Shown here: piece by piece, positions 11,597 through 40,612 of the stretch | Numbering within the stretch: the first letter of the stretch is position 1 | Layout: every line of letters begins with the position of its first letter | NCBI GenBank assembly: GCA_030038095.1 | Contig: JASHPK010000015.1 | Span: 1-42,652, forward strand | DNA from: Thermoplasmata archaeon | GTDB lineage: Archaea > Thermoplasmatota > Thermoplasmata > Lutacidiplasmatales > UBA184 | Length of the DNA stretch: 42,652 bases | Direction: 5' to 3' | The notes under the pieces: generated by a model | What the model saw: the letters and a program-made list of their open reading frames with translations, nothing else | Told to the model about the DNA's origin: nothing | Database searches by the model: none | Made by a program: the position numbers and the translations under genes

Positions 11597-13135
11597 TCAG
11601 AGGTTGTGTCCGGCGAAAATCGCCTTCGCCATGTGCGGGCCCCGGCGCTCGTAGCCGCGCGCCCGGTAGTACTCGCGGGTCCCGACCGCGCTCCGAACGT
11701 AGATCTCGGAGAACCCCTCCGCGCGGACCTGGGCTTCGGCCGAGTCGAGCAGGGCCCGCCCGAATCCCCGGTGCTGGTAGTCGGTCGGTCCGGTCCCCGG
11801 GGTCCCCACGGGGACCTCGCGGCCGAGCACCTTGAGCTCTCGGATGACCGGGGCCGTGAGGCCCCCCTCCGTCCGGTCCGACGGGAAGCGGAGGCGGAGG
11901 AATCCGGCGACGGTATCGGTCGCCTCGTCCTCGAACGCAAAGAAGACCTCCCGCCCGAGCGAGGCCCCGTACTCGGTCTCCGTGAGCCGGAACACCTCGG
12001 CGGGCGGGGCCTCGTGCCGTCCGACCTCCCGACAGCGCAGGCAGCGGCAGCGTCGGCCGTCCTCGGCCAGACGCGAGAGCGCCGCCTCGCGGACGTTGGA
12101 GGTGCGGACGCCCGCCGCGATCAGTCGGGCGGGGATGTCCCGCTGGATGCGCTGGACGCGGACCCAGGGGGGCAGCTCGGCCTTGATCCTCGCGAGGAGC
12201 TCGACGGCGGTCCGGGTGTCGTACGGGGTGTAGCGGCCCGCCTTCCATTCGTCATAGAGCGGGGCGCCCTGAACCACGAGGGTCGGGTAGATCTTGAGCA
12301 GGTCGGGCCGAAAACCGTCCCGCGCGAACAGGCGCCGGAAGTCCGCGAGGTCCTGCTCGGGGTCCATGCCCGGCAGGCCGAGCATGACGTGGTAGCAGAC
12401 CTTGAGGCCCCGGTCCCTCGCCTCGCGGGTGGCCCGCTCGACGTCGCCGCTCGAGTGGGCCCGACCCACCGCGGCGAGGACGTCGTCGTGCAGGCACTCG
12501 ACCCCGATCTCGACCCGGGTCACTCCCGCGTCCAAGAGGAACGGCAGCACCCGCCCGTCGCACCAGTCCGGCCGGGTCTCGACCGTGAGGCCGACCATGC
12601 GGTGCTCCGCGGTCTCGTTCGTGCGCTCGGCCTCCTCGAGGCTCGCGGAGACCGTGCCGTTGAGCCCGTCGTAGATCCCTCGCAGCACCTCGGCCTGGTA
12701 CCCGGGAGGGCGCGAGGGGAACGTCCCCCCCATCACGATCACCTCGACCTTCGAGGTCGGGTGGCCGATCGCCCCGAGGGTCTCGAGCCGGTTCCGCGTG
12801 ATCGCCCGGGAGTCCCAGTGGAACTGCGCCCCTCGCAGGGCGGACGGCTCCTCCCCGGTGTAGCTCTGGGGGCTCCCGTTCTCGACCCCACCGGGGCAGT
12901 AGGTGCACCTCCCGTGCGGGCAGCGGGCGGGAGCGGTCATCACGGCGACGACGGCCACGCCCGAGAGGGTGCGGGAGGGCTTGCGGAGCACGCCCCCCTC
13001 GTACCGGGCCCGCTCCGCCGGGGCCAGCCCCTCCAGCCACTCGGCGTTGGTCGGCAGCGCGCCGGAGCGGCCGTCCCGCATCCACGCGAGCTTCGCCCGG
13101 TGGATCTCCTCGGGCGACGGCGGGCTCCCGCTCAT
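11597..13135 (-). CDS. elp3: Elp3-type tRNA uridine(34) acetyltransferase / radical SAM enzyme
   Basis: The 512-residue protein has the Elp3 architecture. The radical SAM domain carries CPHGRCTYCPGG near residue 72, followed by SQS/TGEEP-type and VIVMGGTFPS motifs. The C-terminal GNAT domain contains YQHRGFGRALL, the acetyl-CoA-binding glycine signature. Two further cysteine pairs (CRCLRC) lie between them. Archaeal Elp3 acts alone in forming the carboxymethyl side chain on wobble uridine 34. The start ATG overlaps the stop of the IPP isomerase gene (ATGA at 13132-13135), so translation is probably coupled. Confidence 0.93.
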   Translation of the reverse strand: MSGSPPSPEEIHRAKLAWMRDGRSGALPTNAEWLEGLAPAERARYEGGVLRKPSRTLSGVAVVAVMTAPARCPHGRCTYCPGGVENGSPQSYTGEEPSALRGAQFHWDSRAITRNRLETLGAIGHPTSKVEVIVMGGTFPSRPPGYQAEVLRGIYDGLNGTVSASLEEAERTNETAEHRMVGLTVETRPDWCDGRVLPFLLDAGVTRVEIGVECLHDDVLAAVGRAHSSGDVERATREARDRGLKVCYHVMLGLPGMDPEQDLADFRRLFARDGFRPDLLKIYPTLVVQGAPLYDEWKAGRYTPYDTRTAVELLARIKAELPPWVRVQRIQRDIPARLIAAGVRTSNVREAALSRLAEDGRRCRCLRCREVGRHEAPPAEVFRLTETEYGASLGREVFFAFEDEATDTVAGFLRLRFPSDRTEGGLTAPVIRELKVLGREVPVGTPGTGPTDYQHRGFGRALLDSAEAQVRAEGFSEIYVRSAVGTREYYRARGYERRGPHMAKAIFAGHNL

Positions 13136-14238
13136 CGGTGGAGCCACGCGCGGGACTCGCCGGTGACCACGTACGGGGCCCGCTGGAGGTCGGCGACCGT
13201 CCGCGACCCGGTGAGGAACATGGCGACCTTGAGCTCGTGGACGAACAGTTCGAGCTCGTGCCGGGTCTCTTCGTATCCGGTAGCGGCGGCGCGCAGCACG
13301 CCGCCCGCGGTCCCCGCGGCGCTCGCCCCCAGGGCGATCGCCCGCGCCACATCGAGGCCGGAACGTACCCCGCCGCTCGCGATCACGGGGAGCCCGAGCG
13401 GGACGAGCTCGAGGACCGAGATCGGGGACGGGATCCCCCAGTCCCAGAACGTCTTGCCGATCCGGGCCTCGCGCACCGCGCCCTGGTCGACTGCCCGGTA
13501 GTGCTCCACGGCCGCGAACGACGTCCCGCCCGTGCCGCTCACGTCGAACGCGCGCACGTGACGGTCCCGCAGCTCCTCGGCGACCGAGCGCGAGATCCCC
13601 GCCCCGGTCTCCTTCACGAGGACCGGAAACGTCGCGGCCAGCTCGCCGATCCGGGCGAGGCACCCCTTCGCGCGGCGATCCCCTTCGGGCTGGGCCATCT
13701 CCTGAAGGAAGTTGAGGTGCACGGCGAGGACGTCGGCCCCGATCAGCTGCATCGCCGATCGCACCTCGTCCGGTCCGACCACGCGGTCGCCGGGTCGCTG
13801 CGGGATGATCTGCGGGGCCCCGAGGTTCGCGAACTTGAGCGGGACCGGGAACCGCGCGACGCAGGAGTAGCTCTCGGGGTACTGGCCCTTCAGGATCGCG
13901 GCCCGTTCGCTGCCGACGCCCATCGCGACGCCCACCTCCGCCGCCGCCTGGGCGAGGTTCTGATTGATCTTCGCGGCGTCCGGGAAGCCCCCGGTCATCC
14001 CGGTGATCACGATCGGAGCTCGCAGCGCGTGCCCGAGCAGGGTCACGGAGGTGTCGATCTCCTCGAAGTCGAGCTCGGGCAGGGCCCGGTGGACGAGCTG
14101 GATGTCGTCCCAGTACCGGTACCGCCCCTCGACGTTGCGTCCGAGGACGACCTTGACGTGCTCGGCCTTGCGGTGGGAGAGGTCGATCCCTCCCTCGTCA
14201 GCCGCGCTCGTCGGTTCCCGCGCGCGCCCAGCTCCCAT
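13132..14238 (-). CDS. fni: Isopentenyl-diphosphate delta-isomerase, type 2
   Basis: The 368-residue FMN-dependent TIM-barrel enzyme interconverts IPP and DMAPP. Visible family features are the N-terminal HRKAEHV motif, IVITGMTGGFPDAA near residue 80, GVGSERA, the LAVHLNFLQE strand with substrate-binding HLN, and the phosphate-binding VIASGGVRSGLDVA near residue 310. ATG 14238 is the best start; it overlaps the end of the kinase gene by 41 nt. It sits between isopentenyl phosphate kinase, which makes its substrate, and elp3. Confidence 0.94.
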   Translation of the reverse strand: MGAGRAREPTSAADEGGIDLSHRKAEHVKVVLGRNVEGRYRYWDDIQLVHRALPELDFEEIDTSVTLLGHALRAPIVITGMTGGFPDAAKINQNLAQAAAEVGVAMGVGSERAAILKGQYPESYSCVARFPVPLKFANLGAPQIIPQRPGDRVVGPDEVRSAMQLIGADVLAVHLNFLQEMAQPEGDRRAKGCLARIGELAATFPVLVKETGAGISRSVAEELRDRHVRAFDVSGTGGTSFAAVEHYRAVDQGAVREARIGKTFWDWGIPSPISVLELVPLGLPVIASGGVRSGLDVARAIALGASAAGTAGGVLRAAATGYEETRHELELFVHELKVAMFLTGSRTVADLQRAPYVVTGESRAWLHR

Positions 14239-15025
14239 AGACCAGCTCTCCGCGGATGGCGCGAGGAAGCTCGCCATCCTTGAGTCCGCTAATAATACCT
14301 GCGTCCACCCCCAGACGCGCGATGGCGAGCATCGCCTCCGCCTTGCCCCGGATGCCGCCCGTGACGTCGGCCGCCCCCGGCGGGGGACGCAGCGCGGCGA
14401 CCAGCGATTCCGTCACCTCCGCGGCGACCCGGCGGCGGCCCGTCGGCGGTCCCTCGAGGATCCCCGGGACGTCGCTCACGAATAGGACCCGGCGGGGCGC
14501 GAGGTGCCGGGCGAGTTCGACCGCGATCGTATCGGCGCTCAGAATCGACGCCCCCCACGCCTCGTCCGGGACGACGTCCCCGAAGGAGACCGGCAGGAGG
14601 CCGCGCTCGAGCGCTTCGGAGATCGGTCGGGGATCGAGCGCCGCAAGCCGGCCCTCCCGGTTCCTCGCGTGAGTGGCCATGGGGATCGAGGCCGGGGCGG
14701 CGCCGGCCCGCAGGAGCTCCTTCAGGACGGAGAGGTGGAGCCGGCGCACCTCGGTGGCGACGATGGCGGCCCCTCGGGCGCGCTCCCCGGCGGATGCTCC
14801 GGCCGCGGGCGCCCGGGCGAGGCCGAAGCGCCGGGCTCCAGGGTGGCCGAACGATCCCGCGCCGTGGAGGAGGATGCGAGGGACTTCGGGGCAGCTCGCC
14901 ACCTCGTGCGCGAGTCGGGCGAGCAGCTTCGGCCGGAGGCGTTCCACCTCCTTCTTCCGGGTGATGACGCTGCCCCCGAGCTTGATGACGACGGGACGCC
15001 GAGCGCTCTCGGGCGGGGCCGCCAT
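14198..15025 (-). CDS. ipk: Isopentenyl phosphate kinase
   Basis: The 275-residue amino-acid-kinase-fold protein phosphorylates isopentenyl phosphate to IPP, the last step of the archaeal mevalonate route variants. The N-terminal VVIKLGGSVIT phosphate loop and the HGAGSFGHP segment with the catalytic histidine that marks IPK within the family are both present, as is FVSDVPGI for the nucleotide site. ATG 15025 is 17 nt downstream of the small membrane-protein gene, and the 3' end overlaps the isomerase gene, so three or four genes are probably one operon. Confidence 0.93.
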   Translation of the reverse strand: MAAPPESARRPVVIKLGGSVITRKKEVERLRPKLLARLAHEVASCPEVPRILLHGAGSFGHPGARRFGLARAPAAGASAGERARGAAIVATEVRRLHLSVLKELLRAGAAPASIPMATHARNREGRLAALDPRPISEALERGLLPVSFGDVVPDEAWGASILSADTIAVELARHLAPRRVLFVSDVPGILEGPPTGRRRVAAEVTESLVAALRPPPGAADVTGGIRGKAEAMLAIARLGVDAGIISGLKDGELPRAIRGELVYGSWARAGTDERG

Positions 15026-32609: not shown

Positions 32610-33178
32610 CAGATGCCTCCCATCGAGTTCGTGACGAGCAGGATCGTGAGCGGGAGGGAGGAGTTCGACACGGCGGTCGAGCTGGGGACCGCGACCCCCG
32701 AGGTCGACGACGCGGCGTACAGCGTCTCGCCCGAAGCCGAGGAGCCCCCCACGAAGAAGGCGAGGATGCCCACGTAGAGAGCGTTGCCGCCGGCGCTGAC
32801 GAAGAACGCCGAGACGTTGACCGCCACCGGGTTCGCGGCCGACGTGAGCGAGAGCTCGAGCACGTTCGACTCGTTCGTCCACGACCCCCAGACGAGGTTC
32901 GACCAGGGGACCCCGCCCGAGCCGTCCCAGCCGAAGTCGTCCGCGAGGCCGAGCCGGATCTCGGCATACCGGTCGGTCGCCCCGAGCGCGCGGACGTAGA
33001 AGCTCAGGGTCGACTGCCCGACGACCCGATCGACGATCAGCTCCGCCTCGCTCGTGATGCCGGGCGCCGAGCCGATCGAGAGCAGGACCGGGGTGACGAG
33101 GATGAAGACGACGAGAAGGACCGTCACTCCGACGAAGGGCCAGGGGATGTAGTCCCCGAGCTGCATCCGGGTCGTCAC
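32609..33178 (-). CDS. Single-pass membrane protein with outer beta-rich domain
   Basis: The 189-residue protein has a membrane segment (PFVGVTVLLVVFILVTPVLL, residues about 13-32) followed by a Ser/Val/Asn-rich outer domain, including the segment WSNLVWGSWTNESN, and a moderately hydrophobic patch near residues 130-145. Overall it resembles signal-anchored archaeal surface proteins. GTG 33178 gives a GTGA overlap with ubiX; ATG 33166 is the alternative start. The function is unknown. Confidence 0.6.
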   Translation of the reverse strand: MTTRMQLGDYIPWPFVGVTVLLVVFILVTPVLLSIGSAPGITSEAELIVDRVVGQSTLSFYVRALGATDRYAEIRLGLADDFGWDGSGGVPWSNLVWGSWTNESNVLELSLTSAANPVAVNVSAFFVSAGGNALYVGILAFFVGGSSASGETLYAASSTSGVAVPSSTAVSNSSLPLTILLVTNSMGGI

Positions 33179-33750
33179 GACGGATCGGCCTTCCACCCTC
33201 GGTAGAGACGGTGGGCGACGCCGAAGTGGTCGAGGACCTTCCCGGCGAGGTAGGCGGTCTGGTCGTCGACGGTCTTCGGATGCAGGTAGTACGGCGGCGC
33301 GGCGTCGAGGACAACGACCCCGAGCTCGCTCAGGGTCGTGAGGTGACGGAGCAGTACGGTGGGGAGGGGGGACTCCCGGGGCACGACCACGAGCGGACGG
33401 TGTTCCTTCAGGTGCACGTGGGCCGCCCGGGTCAACAGCGTGTCCGCGAGGCCGAGGGCGAGCTTCGCGGCCGTGTTCGCGGAACACGGCACGATGACCA
33501 TGCCCCGGGTCCGCCGGGAGCCGCTCGCGATCGGGGCCCCGAGATCGTGGTCGGAGTAGACGGCGCCCGCGAACCGCTCGAGCGCGGCCGGCTCGACGCC
33601 GCACTCCTCCTTCAGGACCGCGCGCGCCCCATCCGACACGACGAGCGCAACCGGCGCCTTCGCGTCGCGCAGGGCCTCGAGGACCCGGACGGCGATCGGA
33701 GCGCCGCTCGCGCCCGAGATCCCGACTACGATCGGCGGCTCTTCCTCCAC
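33175..33750 (-). CDS. ubiX: Flavin prenyltransferase UbiX
   Basis: The 191-residue protein belongs to the flavin prenyltransferase family, which joins dimethylallyl (mono)phosphate to FMN to make the prenyl-FMN cofactor of UbiD-type decarboxylases. It shows the N-terminal GISGASGAPIAVRVL flavin-binding segment, PCSANTAAKLALGLADTL near residue 98 and the VVVPRESPL motif near residue 130. The frame continues upstream, but GTG 33750 matches the family N-terminus. It is the first gene of an operon with two membrane proteins and guaAA. No UbiD-type decarboxylase is in the window. Confidence 0.93.
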   Translation of the reverse strand: MEEEPPIVVGISGASGAPIAVRVLEALRDAKAPVALVVSDGARAVLKEECGVEPAALERFAGAVYSDHDLGAPIASGSRRTRGMVIVPCSANTAAKLALGLADTLLTRAAHVHLKEHRPLVVVPRESPLPTVLLRHLTTLSELGVVVLDAAPPYYLHPKTVDDQTAYLAGKVLDHFGVAHRLYRGWKADPS

Positions 33751-33788
33751 GGGCCTCCCCGGCCTTATGAGGCTCGAACGACTCGGGC

Positions 33789-33815: not shown

Positions 33816-34979
33816 TTGGGGCATCGGGCGGCGATCGTCGGCGCGGGCCATACCCGCTTCGGCGTTCTCGAGCCTGGTCCCCGGGCCCTGCTGCGCTCGG
33901 CGGTTTCGGCGGCGTTCGCGAGCGTGGACCACGGCGCGGCACCCCGCGACGTGGGCGAGGCGTTCCTGGCGTCGCTCGGCTTCGGAGGATGGCAGATCGG
34001 GAACGCCTCGGCGGTCCTGGGGGAGGAGGCCGGCGCGGTGGGCGTGCCCACGACGCGGGTCGAGAACGCGTGCGCGTCGGGCGGGTTCGCCCTCCGCGCG
34101 GCCGTCCGCGCGATCGAGGCCGGAGCGCGCGAACTCGTGCTCGTCGCCGGCGTCGAGAAGATGACCGACGTGGCGAGCGCTCGACGCCGCTATTGGCTCG
34201 GAGTCTCGGGCGACACGGAGTGGGAGCGGCTCGCCGGTCTCACCTTCGCGGGGGTCTACGGTCTCATCGCCTCGCACTACCTCTTCGAGCACCGCCTCGG
34301 GCCGGAGGCGCTCGCCGAGGTCGCCGTGAAGAACCATGAGAACGGGACCCTGAATCCCAACGCCCACTTCCAGAAGCGGGTCTCGCGGGAGGAAGTGCTC
34401 CGCTCGGCCCGCGTGGCCGACCCGCTCGGCCTCTTCGACTGCTGCCCCGTCAGCGACGGGGCCGCCGCGCTCCTCCTCGCCCCGGCGGACTCGGCCCGGA
34501 GGTACACGGACACTCCCGTGTACGTCGATGGGCTCGGCGCCGCGTCGGACCACCTCGCGGTCCAGGAGCGGCCTGAACTGACCCGCTTCGAGGCGACCCG
34601 GCGAGCCGCGGACGAGGCGTTCCGGGGGGCCGGGTGGGATCGGTCCGAAGTCTCCTTCCTGGAAGTGCACGACTGTTTCACGATCGCAGAGCTCCTCGCG
34701 CTCGAGGACCTGGGTTTCGCCGGACCGGGGGAGGCGGCCGCCCTCACCCTGTCGGGCGCCACCCGGAGGACGGGACGCCTGCCCACGAACCCGGACGGGG
34801 GGTTGAAGGCGAAGGGGCACCCGATCGGGGCGACCGGAGTGAGCCAGCTCTACGAGGTGTTCCTCCAGCTCCGCCGTGCGGCAGGCGCCCGCCAGGTCCC
34901 GCAGGCGACTCGAGCCCTCGCCCACAACGTGGGAGGCGCCGGCGCCACCGCGACCGTCTCCCTGCTCTCCGGGGGTTGA
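33816..34979 (+). CDS. Thiolase-like acetyl-CoA C-acetyltransferase (archaeal type)
   Basis: The 387-residue protein has the SCP-x-type thiolase features of archaea: the nucleophilic cysteine in VENACASGG (C86), HDCFT near residue 285, and GLKAKGHPIGATG near residue 330. Archaeal homologues condense acetyl-CoA to acetoacetyl-CoA for the mevalonate pathway and work in complex with HMG-CoA synthase through a DUF35 protein. The start is TTG 33816. The next gene, which overlaps its stop (TTGA), carries the DUF35 domain. Confidence 0.9.
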   Translation: MGHRAAIVGAGHTRFGVLEPGPRALLRSAVSAAFASVDHGAAPRDVGEAFLASLGFGGWQIGNASAVLGEEAGAVGVPTTRVENACASGGFALRAAVRAIEAGARELVLVAGVEKMTDVASARRRYWLGVSGDTEWERLAGLTFAGVYGLIASHYLFEHRLGPEALAEVAVKNHENGTLNPNAHFQKRVSREEVLRSARVADPLGLFDCCPVSDGAAALLLAPADSARRYTDTPVYVDGLGAASDHLAVQERPELTRFEATRRAADEAFRGAGWDRSEVSFLEVHDCFTIAELLALEDLGFAGPGEAAALTLSGATRRTGRLPTNPDGGLKAKGHPIGATGVSQLYEVFLQLRRAAGARQVPQATRALAHNVGGAGATATVSLLSGG

Positions 34980-36037
34980 AGGCGGTGTCGCAAGGGATCC
35001 GGTGGTCGACGTACATCCCGGCCTCGACCGCCGGGGGCCGTCGCGTCGCGGCGCCCGACGAGGATCCGTTCACCCTGGTCGCGACCGCGCTCGAACTCGG
35101 GATCTCCGCCACCGCCCCGTCCCACCCCCTCGCCCGGATCGATCTGGTCGGAGATTGCCCTCCCGTGGCGGATTGGGGTCTCGCGGCGCTCCTGGGCACG
35201 CCGCTCGAGATCACGCGTCATCCGGCGGGGCCCGCCGCGTTCCGTGGAGCCCTCGAAACGCTCGGGAGGGGGCTGCCTGCGGGGCGCTCGGGGGCGGTCG
35301 TCGCCGCGGAGATCCCCGAACGCTCGGCGGACGGGGCCCCGAACCGCGGCGGAGCGCCCGGGGCCGCCGCGGTCGCGGCCTGGGTCGACGGGGCGGACGA
35401 GCGCCGAGGATTCTCCTTCGAGGAGTTCGGGGGGACCGGTGGCGTCGTGGAGGCCGCGTTCTCCCGATGGAGGACCCGGGCTCCGGGTTCCTCCGACGTC
35501 TGGCTGGGCGAATGGGGGGTCGAGCCTTCGGCCGGCCGCTCGGTGAACCTGGAACGCGTGCTCTCGGCCGCCCAACCGTCCCTCTCGGCCGTCTCCGAGG
35601 GAGCGTACGTGCCCCGGTCCCGGTACCTGGAGAACCTGCCCAGCCGCTGGAGGTTCGTCGCGGAGGAGTGCGACGCGTGCGGCGCCCGCACGTTCCCGGC
35701 CCGGGGGGTCTGCCGCCGCTGCGGGAAGGGCGAACGGCTGCGGGCTACCCCGCTTCCGACGGAGGGGGCGACCGTGGTCGCGGCCACCTGGATCGGCCCG
35801 GGAGGCCAACCGACCGAGTTCGACGCCCAGGTCGCCGCCATGGGCGGCTATGGCGTGGTCCTGGCCGACCTCGCGCCCGGGGCCCGCGTCACCCTCCAGG
35901 TGACGGACGCCGACCCGGGCGAGGTGGGGATCGGCTCGCGCGTGGGGACCCGCCTGCGTCGACTGTACCCGATGGAGGGGGAGTGGCGGTACGGTCGAAA
36001 GGCCGTCCCGAGGCCCCGCCCCCCGCCCTCCGGTTAG
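34976..36037 (+). CDS. Degenerate HMG-CoA-synthase-like domain fused to DUF35 OB-fold protein
   Basis: The 353-residue protein joins two parts. The C-terminal part (residues about 215-340) is a DUF35 protein with the zinc ribbon CDACG...CRRCG and an OB-fold, the acyl-CoA-binding scaffold of archaeal thiolase/HMG-CoA synthase complexes. The N-terminal part (about 1-205) is thiolase-fold-like. Its DEDPFTLVATALE resembles the early DED-T helix of archaeal HMG-CoA synthase, and TRHPAGPAA (80-88) aligns with the segment that normally carries the nucleophilic cysteine, here a histidine. It is therefore probably non-catalytic. TTG 34976 overlaps the thiolase stop; GTG 34985 is the alternative. Confidence 0.7.
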   Translation: MKAVSQGIRWSTYIPASTAGGRRVAAPDEDPFTLVATALELGISATAPSHPLARIDLVGDCPPVADWGLAALLGTPLEITRHPAGPAAFRGALETLGRGLPAGRSGAVVAAEIPERSADGAPNRGGAPGAAAVAAWVDGADERRGFSFEEFGGTGGVVEAAFSRWRTRAPGSSDVWLGEWGVEPSAGRSVNLERVLSAAQPSLSAVSEGAYVPRSRYLENLPSRWRFVAEECDACGARTFPARGVCRRCGKGERLRATPLPTEGATVVAATWIGPGGQPTEFDAQVAAMGGYGVVLADLAPGARVTLQVTDADPGEVGIGSRVGTRLRRLYPMEGEWRYGRKAVPRPRPPPSG

Positions 36038-37818
36038 ACCTTCGCCGCGGGCTCGGCCTTCGCACGGGGCTCCCACTTCGCGCCCAGCCAGCTCTCGTAG
36101 ATGCGCCGGGCGAGCTCGCTCGGACTCTCGACGGGAGAGAACGCGTAGGCGGTCGGGGGAGGTTTTCCCATCGTGAGCGGGACGGGGTGGACGTACCCTC
36201 GGCGGAAGACGGTGAGCTCCACCCGGGTCCCGGGCGGGTAGGCCTGCAGGACCTTCTCGAAGCCGGCATAGGTGACCTTCGCGCCGTTGATCGCGACGAT
36301 TTCGTCTCCGGCCGATAGGCCGGCACGCCGTCCCGGGGTCTCGGAGAGCACGTGCTTGACCCGGACGAGCCCGTCCGCGTTCTCGAACTGGATCCCGAGG
36401 TACCCCGGTTCGGGGGTCTCGTCGTCGGGCGGCTTCGGCTTCGGGCCGAAGGCGAGGCCCGCCAGTCGCGCAAAGGCGTCGAAGTCGATCTCGTCGGTCC
36501 CCGCGACGTACCGGGCGAAGAACGGGCCGAGGTCGAGCCCGGTCGCGCGGTTCGCGATCGGGAGGAGCTCGTCCTCGCCGACCCGGCGGCCGGTCTTGCC
36601 GTAGTCGTTCCAGATCGCCCGCATCACGGTCTCGAGCGAGGCCCGGACCTCGGTGCGCGCCCGGATCTCGAGGTCGAGGCACATCGAGACGAGGAGTCCC
36701 TTCGTGTAGTACGATACCGAGTGGTTCGGCGTCTCCTCGTACGGCTGGTAGAAGTCGACCCAGCTCAGGAACGAGAGCTCCTCGAGGCTCTGCGTCCGCC
36801 GGCCCGGCTGGGCGAGGTACTCCTTGATCATCTTGGCCTCGGCTTCGAGGAACCGCGCCGGCGAGTAGACGTCCGCGCGGCGGAGCACGAGGTCGCTGAA
36901 GTAGTCGGTCGCGCCCTCCATCCACCAGAGGAGCCGCGTGTAGTTCTCCCGGGTGTAGTCGAACGGGTCCAGGGCGCCCGGGCGGATCCGCTTCACGTTG
37001 TACAGATGGAAGTACTCATGGCTCAGGAGCGAGAGGAACCGGCGGTACCGCTCCTCGGGGGCGAAGAGGGTCCGGGGGAGGACGCAGGAGCAGGACGTGG
37101 CGTGCTCGAGGCCTCCATCCCAGAGGTCGGACAGGTGGAGGAAGAACGTGTAGCTCGAGAGGGGGGAATCGCCCATCAACCGGACCGTGGCCCCGACGAT
37201 CCGGCCGACATCCTCCTCGAGACGATGGGCCTCGTAGTTCCCGCCCTCGCCGCAGAGCACGATGCGGTGGGGGATGCCCGCCGGTCGGACCGCGAGCACG
37301 AGCGGTCGTCCGATGTCGACCGGGGAGTCGACGAGCTCGTCGTAGCTCTTCGCTCGGAAGCGGGGAGGCTCGAGGCCGACGGAGGCGAGCTCGGTGATGA
37401 CCTGCCAGCCGGGCGGAGGATGGAGCGTCAGCTCGATCGGCTCGTTCTGGTGGCCGTCGACATACGGGATCGAGAGGGCGGCGTTGAGGAACACGTGGGT
37501 CTGGGTGATGTCGACCCCCTCGGTGATCAGGTCCCGGCCGTGCACCGTGTAGCCGACCCGAACGGACGGCGAGCCCTGGGTGGAGACCCTCCAGCGGGCC
37601 TTGTCGATCCGCTCGACGGGGAGCGGAGCGTGATCGTCCGACCGGGAAGCGCCGAGCCGTTCGATCCCCCGTACGTAGTTCACGATGTGGTAGCTGCCCG
37701 GCACCCAGGAGGGCAGCACGAGGTCGACCGTCGGTCGATCGATCCCCTCGAGCTCGAGGAGGAACTGGCCCCGGTGGTCGGAGAGATCGAACCCGCCCGC
37801 CTCGACGCGGATCCGCAT
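36034..37818 (-). CDS. M61-family metallopeptidase with PDZ domain
   Basis: The 594-residue protein matches glycyl-aminopeptidase-like M61 enzymes. An N-terminal beta domain (VLPSWVPGSYHIVNYVRG, residues about 34-51) precedes the gluzincin catalytic domain with the zinc site HEYFHLYNVKRIRP near residue 265 and the downstream glutamate in EGATDYFSDL near 300. A C-terminal PDZ domain (about 470-550) contains GLSAGDEIVAINGA. No signal peptide is seen, so it is probably cytoplasmic. Its stop overlaps that of the convergent DUF35 gene in TTAG. Confidence 0.92.
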   Translation of the reverse strand: MRIRVEAGGFDLSDHRGQFLLELEGIDRPTVDLVLPSWVPGSYHIVNYVRGIERLGASRSDDHAPLPVERIDKARWRVSTQGSPSVRVGYTVHGRDLITEGVDITQTHVFLNAALSIPYVDGHQNEPIELTLHPPPGWQVITELASVGLEPPRFRAKSYDELVDSPVDIGRPLVLAVRPAGIPHRIVLCGEGGNYEAHRLEEDVGRIVGATVRLMGDSPLSSYTFFLHLSDLWDGGLEHATSCSCVLPRTLFAPEERYRRFLSLLSHEYFHLYNVKRIRPGALDPFDYTRENYTRLLWWMEGATDYFSDLVLRRADVYSPARFLEAEAKMIKEYLAQPGRRTQSLEELSFLSWVDFYQPYEETPNHSVSYYTKGLLVSMCLDLEIRARTEVRASLETVMRAIWNDYGKTGRRVGEDELLPIANRATGLDLGPFFARYVAGTDEIDFDAFARLAGLAFGPKPKPPDDETPEPGYLGIQFENADGLVRVKHVLSETPGRRAGLSAGDEIVAINGAKVTYAGFEKVLQAYPPGTRVELTVFRRGYVHPVPLTMGKPPPTAYAFSPVESPSELARRIYESWLGAKWEPRAKAEPAAKV

Positions 37819-38902: not shown

Positions 38903-40612
38903 ATGCCCGCACGCGTGATGAAGGAGTTCCAGGCGCCGCGAGGTCTTCCGCGAAAGACGGCCTCCGTCTGCCCGGAGTGCATCAAGGTCATTCCCGCGAT
39001 CGTCCGGGAGAAGGACGGCCGTGTGATCATGGAGAAGACGTGCCGGACGCACGGCTACTTTTGGGACATCATCTCGAACGACGTCGACTTCTACCTCCGG
39101 ATGGAGGTGTACGCCCACGACGGGGTAGGGTACGAGAACCCCTACTACGACAAGTTCCGCGGCTGCCCGACCACGTGCGGAATGTGCAGCCACCACAAGT
39201 CCCACACGGGACTCGCCCTGGTCGACCTGACCAACCGCTGCAACCTGAAGTGCCCCGTCTGCTTCGCGAACGCGAACGCGGCCGGCTACGTCTTTGAGCC
39301 GACGCGCGAGCAGATCCACTTCATGCTGAAGACCCTCCGGGAGCAGAAACCCGTGGGCACGGTCGCCGTCCAGTTCTCGGGCGGGGAGCCGACCCTGAGC
39401 CCGCTCTTCCTCGACGCGGTGTCGATGGCCCGCGACCTCGGCTTCAAGCAGGTCCAGGTCGCGACGAACGGCATCCGCGTGGCGAACGAGCCCGGCTTCG
39501 CCCAGGCCTGCCGGGACTCGGGGCTCCACACCCTCTACCTCCAGTTCGACGGCCTCGACGACGAGATCTACCGCAAGGTCCGGGGCGTCCCCCTGCTCAA
39601 GGTGAAGCAGAAGGCGATCCAGGCGGCGCGCGAGACCCACTCGTCGCAGGCGGAGCTGGCCGCGGGCAAGCCGGACAAGCCGCTCTCGGTCGTGCTCGTC
39701 CCGACGCTGGTCGGCGGGTTCAACGAGAAGGAGATCTGGCCGACCGTGAAGTTCGCAATCGACAACATCGACGTCGTGCGCGGCGTCAACTTCCAGCCGG
39801 TCGCCCTGACGGCGCGGATCCCCGACAAGGACCGCTTCCAGATGCGGTTCACCCAGTCGGATCTCGTGCGGATCCTGTGCACGGAGGGCCCGTTCGACAA
39901 GTCGGACTTCTTCCCCGTGCCGTCGGTCGCCCCGATCTCCGAGCTCGTCTCGATCATCCACGGCGAGGAGAAGATGACCCTCACGACCCACCCCGGCTGC
40001 GGCTGCGCGACGTTCGCCTTCATCTCGAAGGACGGGCAGAAGATCACGCCGCTCCCCCGGTTCATGGACGTCGACGGCTTCTTCGAGAACGTCGAGTCGA
40101 TGATCGAGAAGTACCGGGACGCGCGCTTCGCCCGCGTGCGCACGGCGGTCGCGGGGGCCCGGCTGCTCCACGACGTCTCGAAGTACTTCGACTTCTCGAA
40201 GGCGCCCGAGGGGCTCAGCGAGAAGAACTGCGTCAAGGTGATCGCGGGGATCTTCACCGAGGGCAACAAGGAGGCCCTCGCGAAGTTCACCTGGCGCACG
40301 CTCTACATCGGGAACATGCACTTCCAGGACGCGTACGACTACGACATCCAGCGCCTGATGCGCTGCGATATCCACTACGCGGTCCCCGACGGGCGGGTCA
40401 TCCCCTTCTGCTCGTACAACTCGGGCCCGATCTACCGGACGGAGGTCGAGAAGAAGTTCTCGATCCCGATCGCCGACTGGCAGACCGCGAAGAAGTCGGC
40501 CGGCGTGACGCTGAAGACGATCGAGACGATGGGCGTCAACGGCGAGGTCATCGTCGACCCCGAGTACTACAAGATCCGGGCGCTGAAGGGCGCGCCCGGC
40601 ATGTCGACGTAG
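38903..40612 (+). CDS. tes: Tetraether lipid synthase (radical SAM)
   Basis: The 569-residue protein matches the radical SAM family identified as tetraether synthase (MJ0619-like), which couples lipid biphytanyl chains to build membrane-spanning GDGT lipids. It has an N-terminal metal site (CPEC at 23-26 and C47), an auxiliary cluster motif CPTTCGMC (88-95), the radical SAM site CNLKCPVC (113-120), the SGGEP motif near residue 158 and later cysteines in HPGCGC and near RVIPFCSYN. Length and cysteine layout fit the family. Other radical SAM enzymes share parts of this pattern, so the lipid role is family-based. Confidence 0.87.
   Translation: MPARVMKEFQAPRGLPRKTASVCPECIKVIPAIVREKDGRVIMEKTCRTHGYFWDIISNDVDFYLRMEVYAHDGVGYENPYYDKFRGCPTTCGMCSHHKSHTGLALVDLTNRCNLKCPVCFANANAAGYVFEPTREQIHFMLKTLREQKPVGTVAVQFSGGEPTLSPLFLDAVSMARDLGFKQVQVATNGIRVANEPGFAQACRDSGLHTLYLQFDGLDDEIYRKVRGVPLLKVKQKAIQAARETHSSQAELAAGKPDKPLSVVLVPTLVGGFNEKEIWPTVKFAIDNIDVVRGVNFQPVALTARIPDKDRFQMRFTQSDLVRILCTEGPFDKSDFFPVPSVAPISELVSIIHGEEKMTLTTHPGCGCATFAFISKDGQKITPLPRFMDVDGFFENVESMIEKYRDARFARVRTAVAGARLLHDVSKYFDFSKAPEGLSEKNCVKVIAGIFTEGNKEALAKFTWRTLYIGNMHFQDAYDYDIQRLMRCDIHYAVPDGRVIPFCSYNSGPIYRTEVEKKFSIPIADWQTAKKSAGVTLKTIETMGVNGEVIVDPEYYKIRALKGAPGMST

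Follow-up and report, generated by a model that had tools for sequence, protein, structure and literature searches.

A thiolase paired with an apparently dead HMG-CoA synthase-like/DUF35 fusion protein in Thermoplasmata, and the seemingly opposite loss in a second set of genes

Introduction

The archaeal complex of acetoacetyl-coenzyme A (CoA) thiolase and 3-hydroxy-3-methylglutaryl-CoA (HMG-CoA) synthase (HMGS) is the standard case of a DUF35 protein joining two consecutive enzymes. In the structure from Methanothermococcus thermolithotrophicus (Protein Data Bank, PDB, 6esq/6et9), CoA is described at the interface of all three proteins (PMC6392133). Here, we analyze a pair of genes located in a stretch of 42,652 nucleotides (nt) from a Thermoplasmata archaeon (contig JASHPK010000015.1 of assembly GCA_030038095.1), the whole of which is called the window. 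In this pair, a thiolase gene is followed by a gene for a fusion of an HMGS-like domain and DUF35. We favor, with a probability of roughly 70%, the reading that the pair constitutes a two-subunit thiolase that came from the archaeal complex, with an eroded pseudo-HMGS/DUF35 protein as its beta subunit and cap, and that another copy of the complex in the same genome went the opposite way.

Related assemblies have been described. PhlABC and MucABC (PDB 5m3k, 9skh and 9vbo) have an active thiolase-fold subunit, a DUF35 protein and an HMGS-like protein; in the passages of the source that describe PhlABC, only residues of PhlC act, PhlA is without the Cys114 and Glu82 of HMGCS, and the operon has to be expressed in full for activity (PMC6392133). 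The structure paper on SSO2064 mentions DUF35 homologues fused to thiolase-superfamily domains and calls PhlA inactive (PMC2954200). In Sal-Shy, two DUF35 domains are reported to lie on either side of a dimer and to give the active site its shape (PMC12329534). According to the relevant part of a review, the haloarchaeal beta-ketothiolases BktB and PhaA require a catalytic alpha subunit and a beta subunit with an oligonucleotide/oligosaccharide-binding (OB) fold, their catalytic triad is Ser-His-His, and deletion of the N-terminal part of the beta subunit causes a 93% product loss in PhaA and has little effect in BktB (PMC7137286).

The window pair is like the Methanothermococcus complex in having a homologous thiolase, a homologous DUF35 part and an HMGS-like third part. 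It differs in that this third part is without a conserved nucleophile, is fused to DUF35 and is only about 200 amino acids (aa) long; the active HMGS expected of an archaeal channelling complex appears to be missing from the pair. It also resembles PhlABC and MucABC, but the dead subunit of these enzymes is a full-length protein of its own, their reaction is the C-acylation of phenols, and their thiolase subunit is only distantly related to that of the window. BbsAB, Ltp2-ChsH2 and Sal-Shy share with it a thiolase-fold subunit combined with DUF35, whereas these solved complexes have no HMGS-like domain as far as the published passages on them tell.

Results and Discussion

The thiolase and its fusion partner

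The features of the pair are located in the window as follows.

33816..34979, plus strand: SCP2-type thiolase, proposed alpha subunit; 387 aa, with C86, H285, C287 and H335 present
34985..36037, plus strand: fusion protein, proposed beta subunit; 350 aa, eroded HMGS-like domain and DUF35
34985..35590, plus strand: N-terminal domain of the fusion (N domain), residues 1-202; apparent remnant of the HMGS/thiolase fold without a conserved nucleophile (hhalign, AlphaFold model, Foldseek)
35057..35074, plus strand: DED..T motif, residues 25-30 of the fusion; matching DEDTIT of the intact HMGS of the genome
35213..35239, plus strand: TRHPAGPAA, residues 77-85 of the fusion; site of the lost nucleophile
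35591..36034, plus strand: DUF35 half of the fusion; zinc ribbon and OB fold with the family motifs QPTEFD and LRRLYPMEGEWRYGRKA

The nearest solved structures to the window thiolase are 7yvy_A (E 6.8e-71) and the archaeal acetoacetyl-CoA thiolase 6esq_A (1.2e-70), and its score against the model PRK06064 is 420.1 with a cut-off of 420. It has the traits of the SCP2-type thiolases of the archaeal complex, namely the Cys nucleophile and the HDCF and GHP motifs, and its catalytic residues are C86 (34071-34073), H285 (34668-34670), C287 (34674-34676) and H335 (34818-34820). The same four residues are kept in 31 of the 32 named loci with a thiolase of this type, the remaining one ending before the first Cys; separate counts with and without the long rows agreed with each other for this type. 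With these residues in place the thiolase looks active, as an earlier note on this DNA, made from the letters alone, had implied.

PhlABC-type complexes and MucABC are built of the same three parts, with a PhlA described as devoid of the Cys and Glu of HMGCS (PMC6392133), and the window pair could be a C-acyltransferase of this kind, moving an acyl group to a non-CoA acceptor rather than acting as a CoA thiolase. The resemblance extends to a full-length dead HMGS-like protein from other Thermoplasmata (P0003, described below), for which the PhlA-type chain 9skh_A (1.7e-42) is nearly equal to the HMGS chain 6esq_I (4.3e-43). The window thiolase, however, is far more distant from PhlC-type chains (1.9e-24 to 5.4e-23) than from 6esq_A and 7yvy_A, and no polyketide genes were seen among the window frames read by eye, no model search for them having been made. 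We consider this explanation quite unlikely.

Judged from its relatives, the fusion gene most likely begins with GTG 34985, which leaves 5 nt between the two genes. In most of the relatives a start codon is found no more than a few residues from the counterpart of this GTG; five frames (L017, L026, L046, L053 and L069) have none upstream of the match. The earlier note had the thiolase gene overlapped by the fusion gene. The order of the genes, thiolase and then fusion on the plus strand, stands; the overlap does not, because the open reading frame (ORF) from 34634 that overlaps the thiolase gene is an in-frame upstream extension of the fusion frame beyond its likely start.

The DUF35 half of the fusion has the expected composition, a rubredoxin-like Cys4 zinc ribbon followed by an OB fold; the earlier note had likewise read a zinc ribbon and an OB fold here. 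The zinc ribbon (zf-ChsH2) is above the Pfam cut-off (26.9 vs 23.2 bits), the half matches the DUF35 chain of 6esq by sequence (6.2e-07), and its structural matches in Foldseek include 6esq_G and 5m3k_B. In an alignment of 48 proteins, consisting of the window protein and 47 others thinned from 65 (chosen for a start codon, a pattern of acidic residues and T, and a length of at least 270 aa), the zinc-ribbon residues C229, C232, C243 and C246 are invariant, as are many other residues of this half.

The N-terminal domain of the fusion

The first 200 residues of the fusion have no match in Pfam at E 1, and no HMGS model was found among the matches of the fusion protein at E 1 or better. A relationship was detected by comparing alignments and structures. 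When 44 N domains were compared with 61 HMGS rows using hhalign, the probability was 86 (E 4.6e-6, 136 columns). Comparison with 19 rows of dead full-length HMGS gave a probability of 56 (E 1.2e-4, 135 columns), and a control of 42 intact HMGS rows with shuffled columns gave 0.1 (E 0.46). The AlphaFold model of the fusion has a mean predicted local distance difference test (pLDDT) value of 90.1 and a predicted template modelling score (pTM) of 0.91; its confidence is high across most of the N domain and lower near residues 111-150. Residues 6-135 of the model follow a beta-alpha-beta-alpha-beta-alpha-beta-beta order, with short elements beyond. A Foldseek search with this model placed DUF35 chains at the top, followed by HMG synthases, FabH and PhlA (E values of 5.2e-06 for 5kp7_A, 6.5e-05 for 6esq_I and 1.3e-04 for 5mg5_A). 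By Foldseek and the model the N domain has the thiolase/ketoacyl synthase III (KAS III) fold, of which only the first half is clearly kept. Taken together with the DED..T motif (see below), the order of elements, the Foldseek matches and the profile comparison point to a remnant of the HMGS fold, mainly of its first half, and the N domain most likely derives from HMG-CoA synthase. A decayed thiolase-fold half of about 205 residues ahead of DUF35 had been proposed in the earlier note on the grounds of motif resemblance; the observed domain has about 202 residues and its fold is related to those of HMGS and KAS III.

The segment TRHPAGPAA, which had been picked out as the expected carrier of the nucleophile, does align at that position with hhalign and has no Cys. 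In the stretch aligned to residues 74-92, a Cys occurs in four of the 48 proteins, at varying places. The region of the catalytic His of HMGS is largely absent from the fusion protein in the alignment and in the model. The hallmarks of an HMG-CoA synthase (TIGR00748 or NF003274; catalytic Cys, Glu and His) were not found in the N domain, which looks catalytically dead. Neither of the two outcomes that, according to the earlier note, would contradict its reading was obtained. The domain measures 175-218 aa in 36 of the 48 sequences and 245-293 aa in the other 12; for comparison, the HMGS proteins P0003 and P0005 are 341-350 aa long.

The sole invariant residues of the N domain in the 48 sequences are D25, E26, D27 and T30. 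Since the choice of sequences used the acidic/T pattern and thus favored this motif, DED..T was recounted without that choice in the 41 distinct loci of named Thermoplasmata metagenome-assembled genomes in which relatives of the fusion were found, among them Candidatus Lutacidiplasma silvani. It is present in all 34 loci that reach the motif, the other seven stopping short of it. Its counterpart in the intact HMGS of the window's genome is DEDTIT, within PDEDTITISTEAL. An N domain kept through a whole family of genomes could in principle be an enzyme of another kind, with catalytic residues outside the HMGS triad. Nevertheless, there is no invariant residue beyond these four, and the motif that they form is shared with intact HMGS, where it lies outside the triad, which makes this possibility very improbable.

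The ratio of nonsynonymous to synonymous substitution rates (dN/dS) of the N domain is less than 1 in all 14 close pairs (range 0.16-0.75), compared with 0.09-0.25 for the DUF35 half in the same pairs, which share members and have synonymous sites near saturation in 13 of the 14. A thiolase gene lies upstream of the fusion in each of the 30 named loci where 1.3 kb or more is available on that side. Because of these two results, the pairing and the constraint on the N domain exceed what chance would produce. Relatives of the fusion (E 1e-12 or better) were found in 63 of the 71 genomes of the family that are at least 80% complete, many of the matches being confined to the DUF35 half; the eight genomes lacking one include all four of one genus.

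These data also bear on the possibility that the N domain is a decaying, functionless leftover and that the DUF35 half alone matters. The small number of invariant residues, a dN/dS that exceeds the DUF35 value in 13 of the 14 pairs and the reported tolerance of BktB-beta to N-terminal deletion (review, PMC7137286) would agree with such a leftover. On the other hand, the 48 aligned sequences (which were chosen for a start codon and the acidic/T motif) keep the frame open and have N domains of 175-293 aa, the dN/dS stays below 1 in every pair, the AlphaFold model is confident over most of the domain, and the review reports a severe effect of the corresponding deletion in PhaA-beta. A functionless leftover is therefore rather unlikely.

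A second set of genes with the opposite losses

A separate HMGS, for which the earlier note had advised a search of the genome, was found intact on another contig (C46, 536 bits). It is adjoined on the same strand by a thiolase gene and a DUF35 gene. When aligned with 6esq_A, the C46 thiolase (L080:6800-7945, minus strand) has Gly in place of the nucleophilic Cys, Ala in place of the Cys of HDCF and Arg in place of the His of GHP. Considering the mechanism of these enzymes, the replacements would be expected to abolish thiolase activity. The protein passes the general model PRK06064 (503.7 vs 420) and scores too low for NF053570, a model of acetyl-CoA acetyltransferase (506.6 vs 600).

The loss is common in thiolases with this kind of neighbor. 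Among the matches listed, the nucleophilic Cys is absent in 33 of 41 distinct Thermoplasmata thiolases located beside an intact HMGS. The eight that keep it comprise two with all four residues, one with three that ends before the fourth, and five in which the Cys of HDCF is replaced by Ala. In the window's genus the nucleophilic Cys was lost in 11 of 11 such thiolases (again among the matches listed), and two genomes of another family, G041 and G054, have the same live/dead split as the window's genome. The set with the dead HMGS keeps its thiolase residues and the set with the intact HMGS loses them; thus, opposite halves seem to be live in this genus, and the sequences suggest that the archaeal thiolase/HMGS complex was split by reciprocal loss between two sets. 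A literature search that covered few subscription journals returned no report of reciprocal loss in this complex, nor of dead HMGS/DUF35 fusions in Thermoplasmata. We propose, tentatively and as something possible rather than probable, that the dead halves are kept as part of the CoA site shared with their partners, and that the two half-dead complexes work in series, with acetoacetyl-CoA no longer channelled inside a single assembly but released and handed on to the other one or to further pathways.

The intact HMGS also raises the question of whether the fusion could be an adaptor that docks it and channels acetoacetyl-CoA from the window thiolase, similar to one of two ideas in the earlier note, that the fusion recruits a synthase encoded elsewhere. 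The C46 thiolase beside the intact HMGS is without catalytic residues, so acetoacetyl-CoA should come from another thiolase. However, the C46 HMGS already has DUF35 and thiolase-like genes adjacent to it, and the HMGS-like domain of the fusion would sit where HMGS has to bind. Moreover, a bacterial-type thiolase encoded on contig C35 (TIGR01930, 410.6 vs 240.55 bits; assigned by model score alone) could supply acetoacetyl-CoA to the intact HMGS in place of the window thiolase. The recruitment idea agrees poorly with these observations and an adaptor role is unlikely. The genome has six thiolase/DUF35 pairs (contigs C1, C3, C8, C22, C25 and C46); in the other five the distance from the thiolase match to the start of the OB match is 330 nt or less, too short for an intervening domain of 200 residues like that in the window.

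Other thiolases with dead HMGS-like partners

The window pair belongs to a wider kind, which includes PhlABC, of thiolases with dead HMGS-like partners and DUF35. In two other Thermoplasmata families, a full-length HMGS-like protein was found in 19 loci, with a DUF35 gene adjoining in all of them and a thiolase gene in 18; the nineteenth shows no thiolase. In every one of the 19 proteins Glu is replaced by Thr, Cys by Thr or Ser, and His by Gln, while ordinary HMGS rows keep Glu, Cys and His in 42 of 42 (one gene was fetched twice). Going by these residues, the full-length protein is dead. The thiolases beside it keep C, H, C and H in 18 of 18. One of the dead proteins, P0003, passes NF003274 (275 vs 244 bits) and fails TIGR00748 (190 vs 353).

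Two of these loci, from one genus (L123:3586-10851 and L124), have further genes that are CoA-transferase-like, followed by a pyridoxal phosphate (PLP) enzyme. The CoA-transferase subunit A gene was labeled by reading and has no NCBIfam match, the subunit-B-like gene scores below the cut-off of TIGR02428 (65 vs 244 bits), and the PLP enzyme passes the glutamate-1-semialdehyde aminomutase model PRK00062 (406 vs 398). A lysine 2,3-aminomutase gene (TIGR03820, 591 vs 525) is divergent to the operon, which perhaps serves a degradation by way of a beta-amino acid and a beta-ketoacyl-CoA.

Fusions of dead HMGS and DUF35 in a single protein of 471-486 aa (about 475) occur in haloarchaeal and Pseudomonadota plasmids, plasmids being the one named collection searched for them. 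Eight were read; a thiolase is annotated beside seven, and none beside L183, whose gene table is incomplete. Seven plasmid fusions were aligned with an unfused PhlA-like protein from Priestia; as read by eye, all eight proteins have other residues in place of Glu and Cys, and one keeps His. The megaplasmid of Haloferax mediterranei encodes a thiolase and then a 476-aa fusion of this kind (L185), in which Glu and Cys were read as absent. This pair may be bktB, a plausible guess as the locus tags are unmatched. The BktB/PhaA enzymes of this organism combine a thiolase alpha subunit and an OB-fold beta subunit, and the window pair matches them in gene arrangement and architecture as judged from genes alone; the haloarchaeal fusion is full length and that of the window is shrunk. 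In the H. mediterranei plasmid thiolase, as in that of the window, the nucleophile site is occupied by Cys, whereas the triad given in the review begins with Ser (PMC7137286).

In a tree built from 61 thiolase rows, a 100/100 branch separates every thiolase that has a dead partner from the ordinary ones. When the latter serve as outgroup, the window and haloarchaeal types form sister groups (96/89), and thiolases accompanied by a separate dead HMGS branch outside them. This tree excludes the long rows L180 (Pseudomonadota), L087 and L091, and the C22 and C8 paralogues are also outside its sample. The pattern fits a single loss of synthase activity, followed by fusion and then by shrinkage in the window's lineage. 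The direction from intact to dead HMGS would follow from the intact state of 6esq and not from a root.

Proposed mechanism and points against it

In the mechanism that we propose, the thiolase would be the only active subunit and the second protein its beta subunit. Cys86, His335 and the HDCF pair, as identified by alignment, would catalyze the cleavage or formation of a beta-ketoacyl-CoA through the usual ping-pong mechanism of thiolases. By analogy with 6esq, PhlABC and the Sal/DUF35 complex, the DUF35 half would dock on the thiolase and close the CoA pocket, and the N-terminal half, an eroded remnant of a former HMG-CoA synthase, would act as a structural, non-catalytic cap. The predicted substrate is most likely acetoacetyl-CoA or another short beta-ketoacyl-CoA. 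Such a system may have descended from the archaeal acetoacetyl-CoA thiolase/DUF35/HMG-CoA synthase complex through loss of the synthase activity, fusion of the dead synthase to DUF35 and shrinkage, probably in this order, while the other copy in the genome would have kept the synthase and lost the thiolase. The other idea of the earlier note, a scaffold that imitates the synthase while the thiolase stays available to another pathway, comes nearer to this mechanism and agrees with the PhlABC precedent as described (PMC6392133).

Several observations weigh against the two-subunit thiolase. Both the activity and the complex are predictions drawn from sequence and modelled structure. The hhalign probability for kinship of the N domain with HMGS is moderate, and against the 42 intact HMGS rows it falls to 61 (E 8.2e-5) over only 63 columns. 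For HMGS chains, Foldseek gives low template modelling scores (TM-scores), of about 0.3 by query length and with root mean square deviations of 3.8-8.2, which is expected because the N domain alone, one half of a two-domain protein, matches. The OB half is below its Pfam cut-off (OB_ChsH2_C, 16.9 vs 27.1 bits). Evolution of the N domain is rapid, with dN/dS as high as 0.75, so parts of it may be near neutral. The tree program gave a warning about L095, a long ordinary row that adjoins the side with the dead partners. Finally, no pathway genes that would name a substrate were found beside the window pair, and a lysine route was rejected for it, as lysine 2,3-aminomutase was found in 0 of the 47 genomes of the window's genus.

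The presence in one genome of a copy whose synthase looks dead and another whose thiolase looks dead makes the reason for keeping the members of such complexes (catalysis, channelling or the shape of the shared CoA pocket) testable. There is also a risk of misnaming, since P0003 passes NF003274 and the C46 thiolase passes PRK06064 despite the lost residues. Pathway reconstructions that use such names may credit proteins with activities that they lack.

Neighboring genes

A further gene lies upstream of the thiolase gene in divergent orientation.

33175..33765, minus strand: UbiX family flavin prenyltransferase, divergent neighbor (predicted start)

It is present in all 29 named loci with at least 2 kb of room. 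Together with genes for isopentenyl phosphate kinase and type 2 isopentenyl diphosphate (IPP) isomerase, a UbiX gene would suggest the archaeal anhydromevalonate-phosphate route. An isoprenoid role by way of UbiX was considered and rejected: the best AcnX score in the genome, which is 91.9% complete, is below the cut-off (22.9 vs 31.5 bits), and the single UbiD match, a 196-aa piece, is best with a menaquinone decarboxylase model and also below the cut-off (271 vs 495.9). Therefore, an isoprenoid role is not claimed, and UbiX is treated as a neighbor that may or may not belong to the system.

On the other side of the pair, a convergent gene resembling that at 36034-37818 of the window was found in 28 of the 39 loci with at least 1.5 kb downstream. 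Its product is M61-like by motifs read by eye, with no NCBIfam match. Elsewhere in the window, genes for type 2 isopentenyl-diphosphate isomerase and isopentenyl phosphate kinase are adjacent at 13132-15022 (minus strand), and a tetraether lipid synthase Tes is encoded at 38903-40612 (plus strand; NF045702, 575.8 vs 450 bits).

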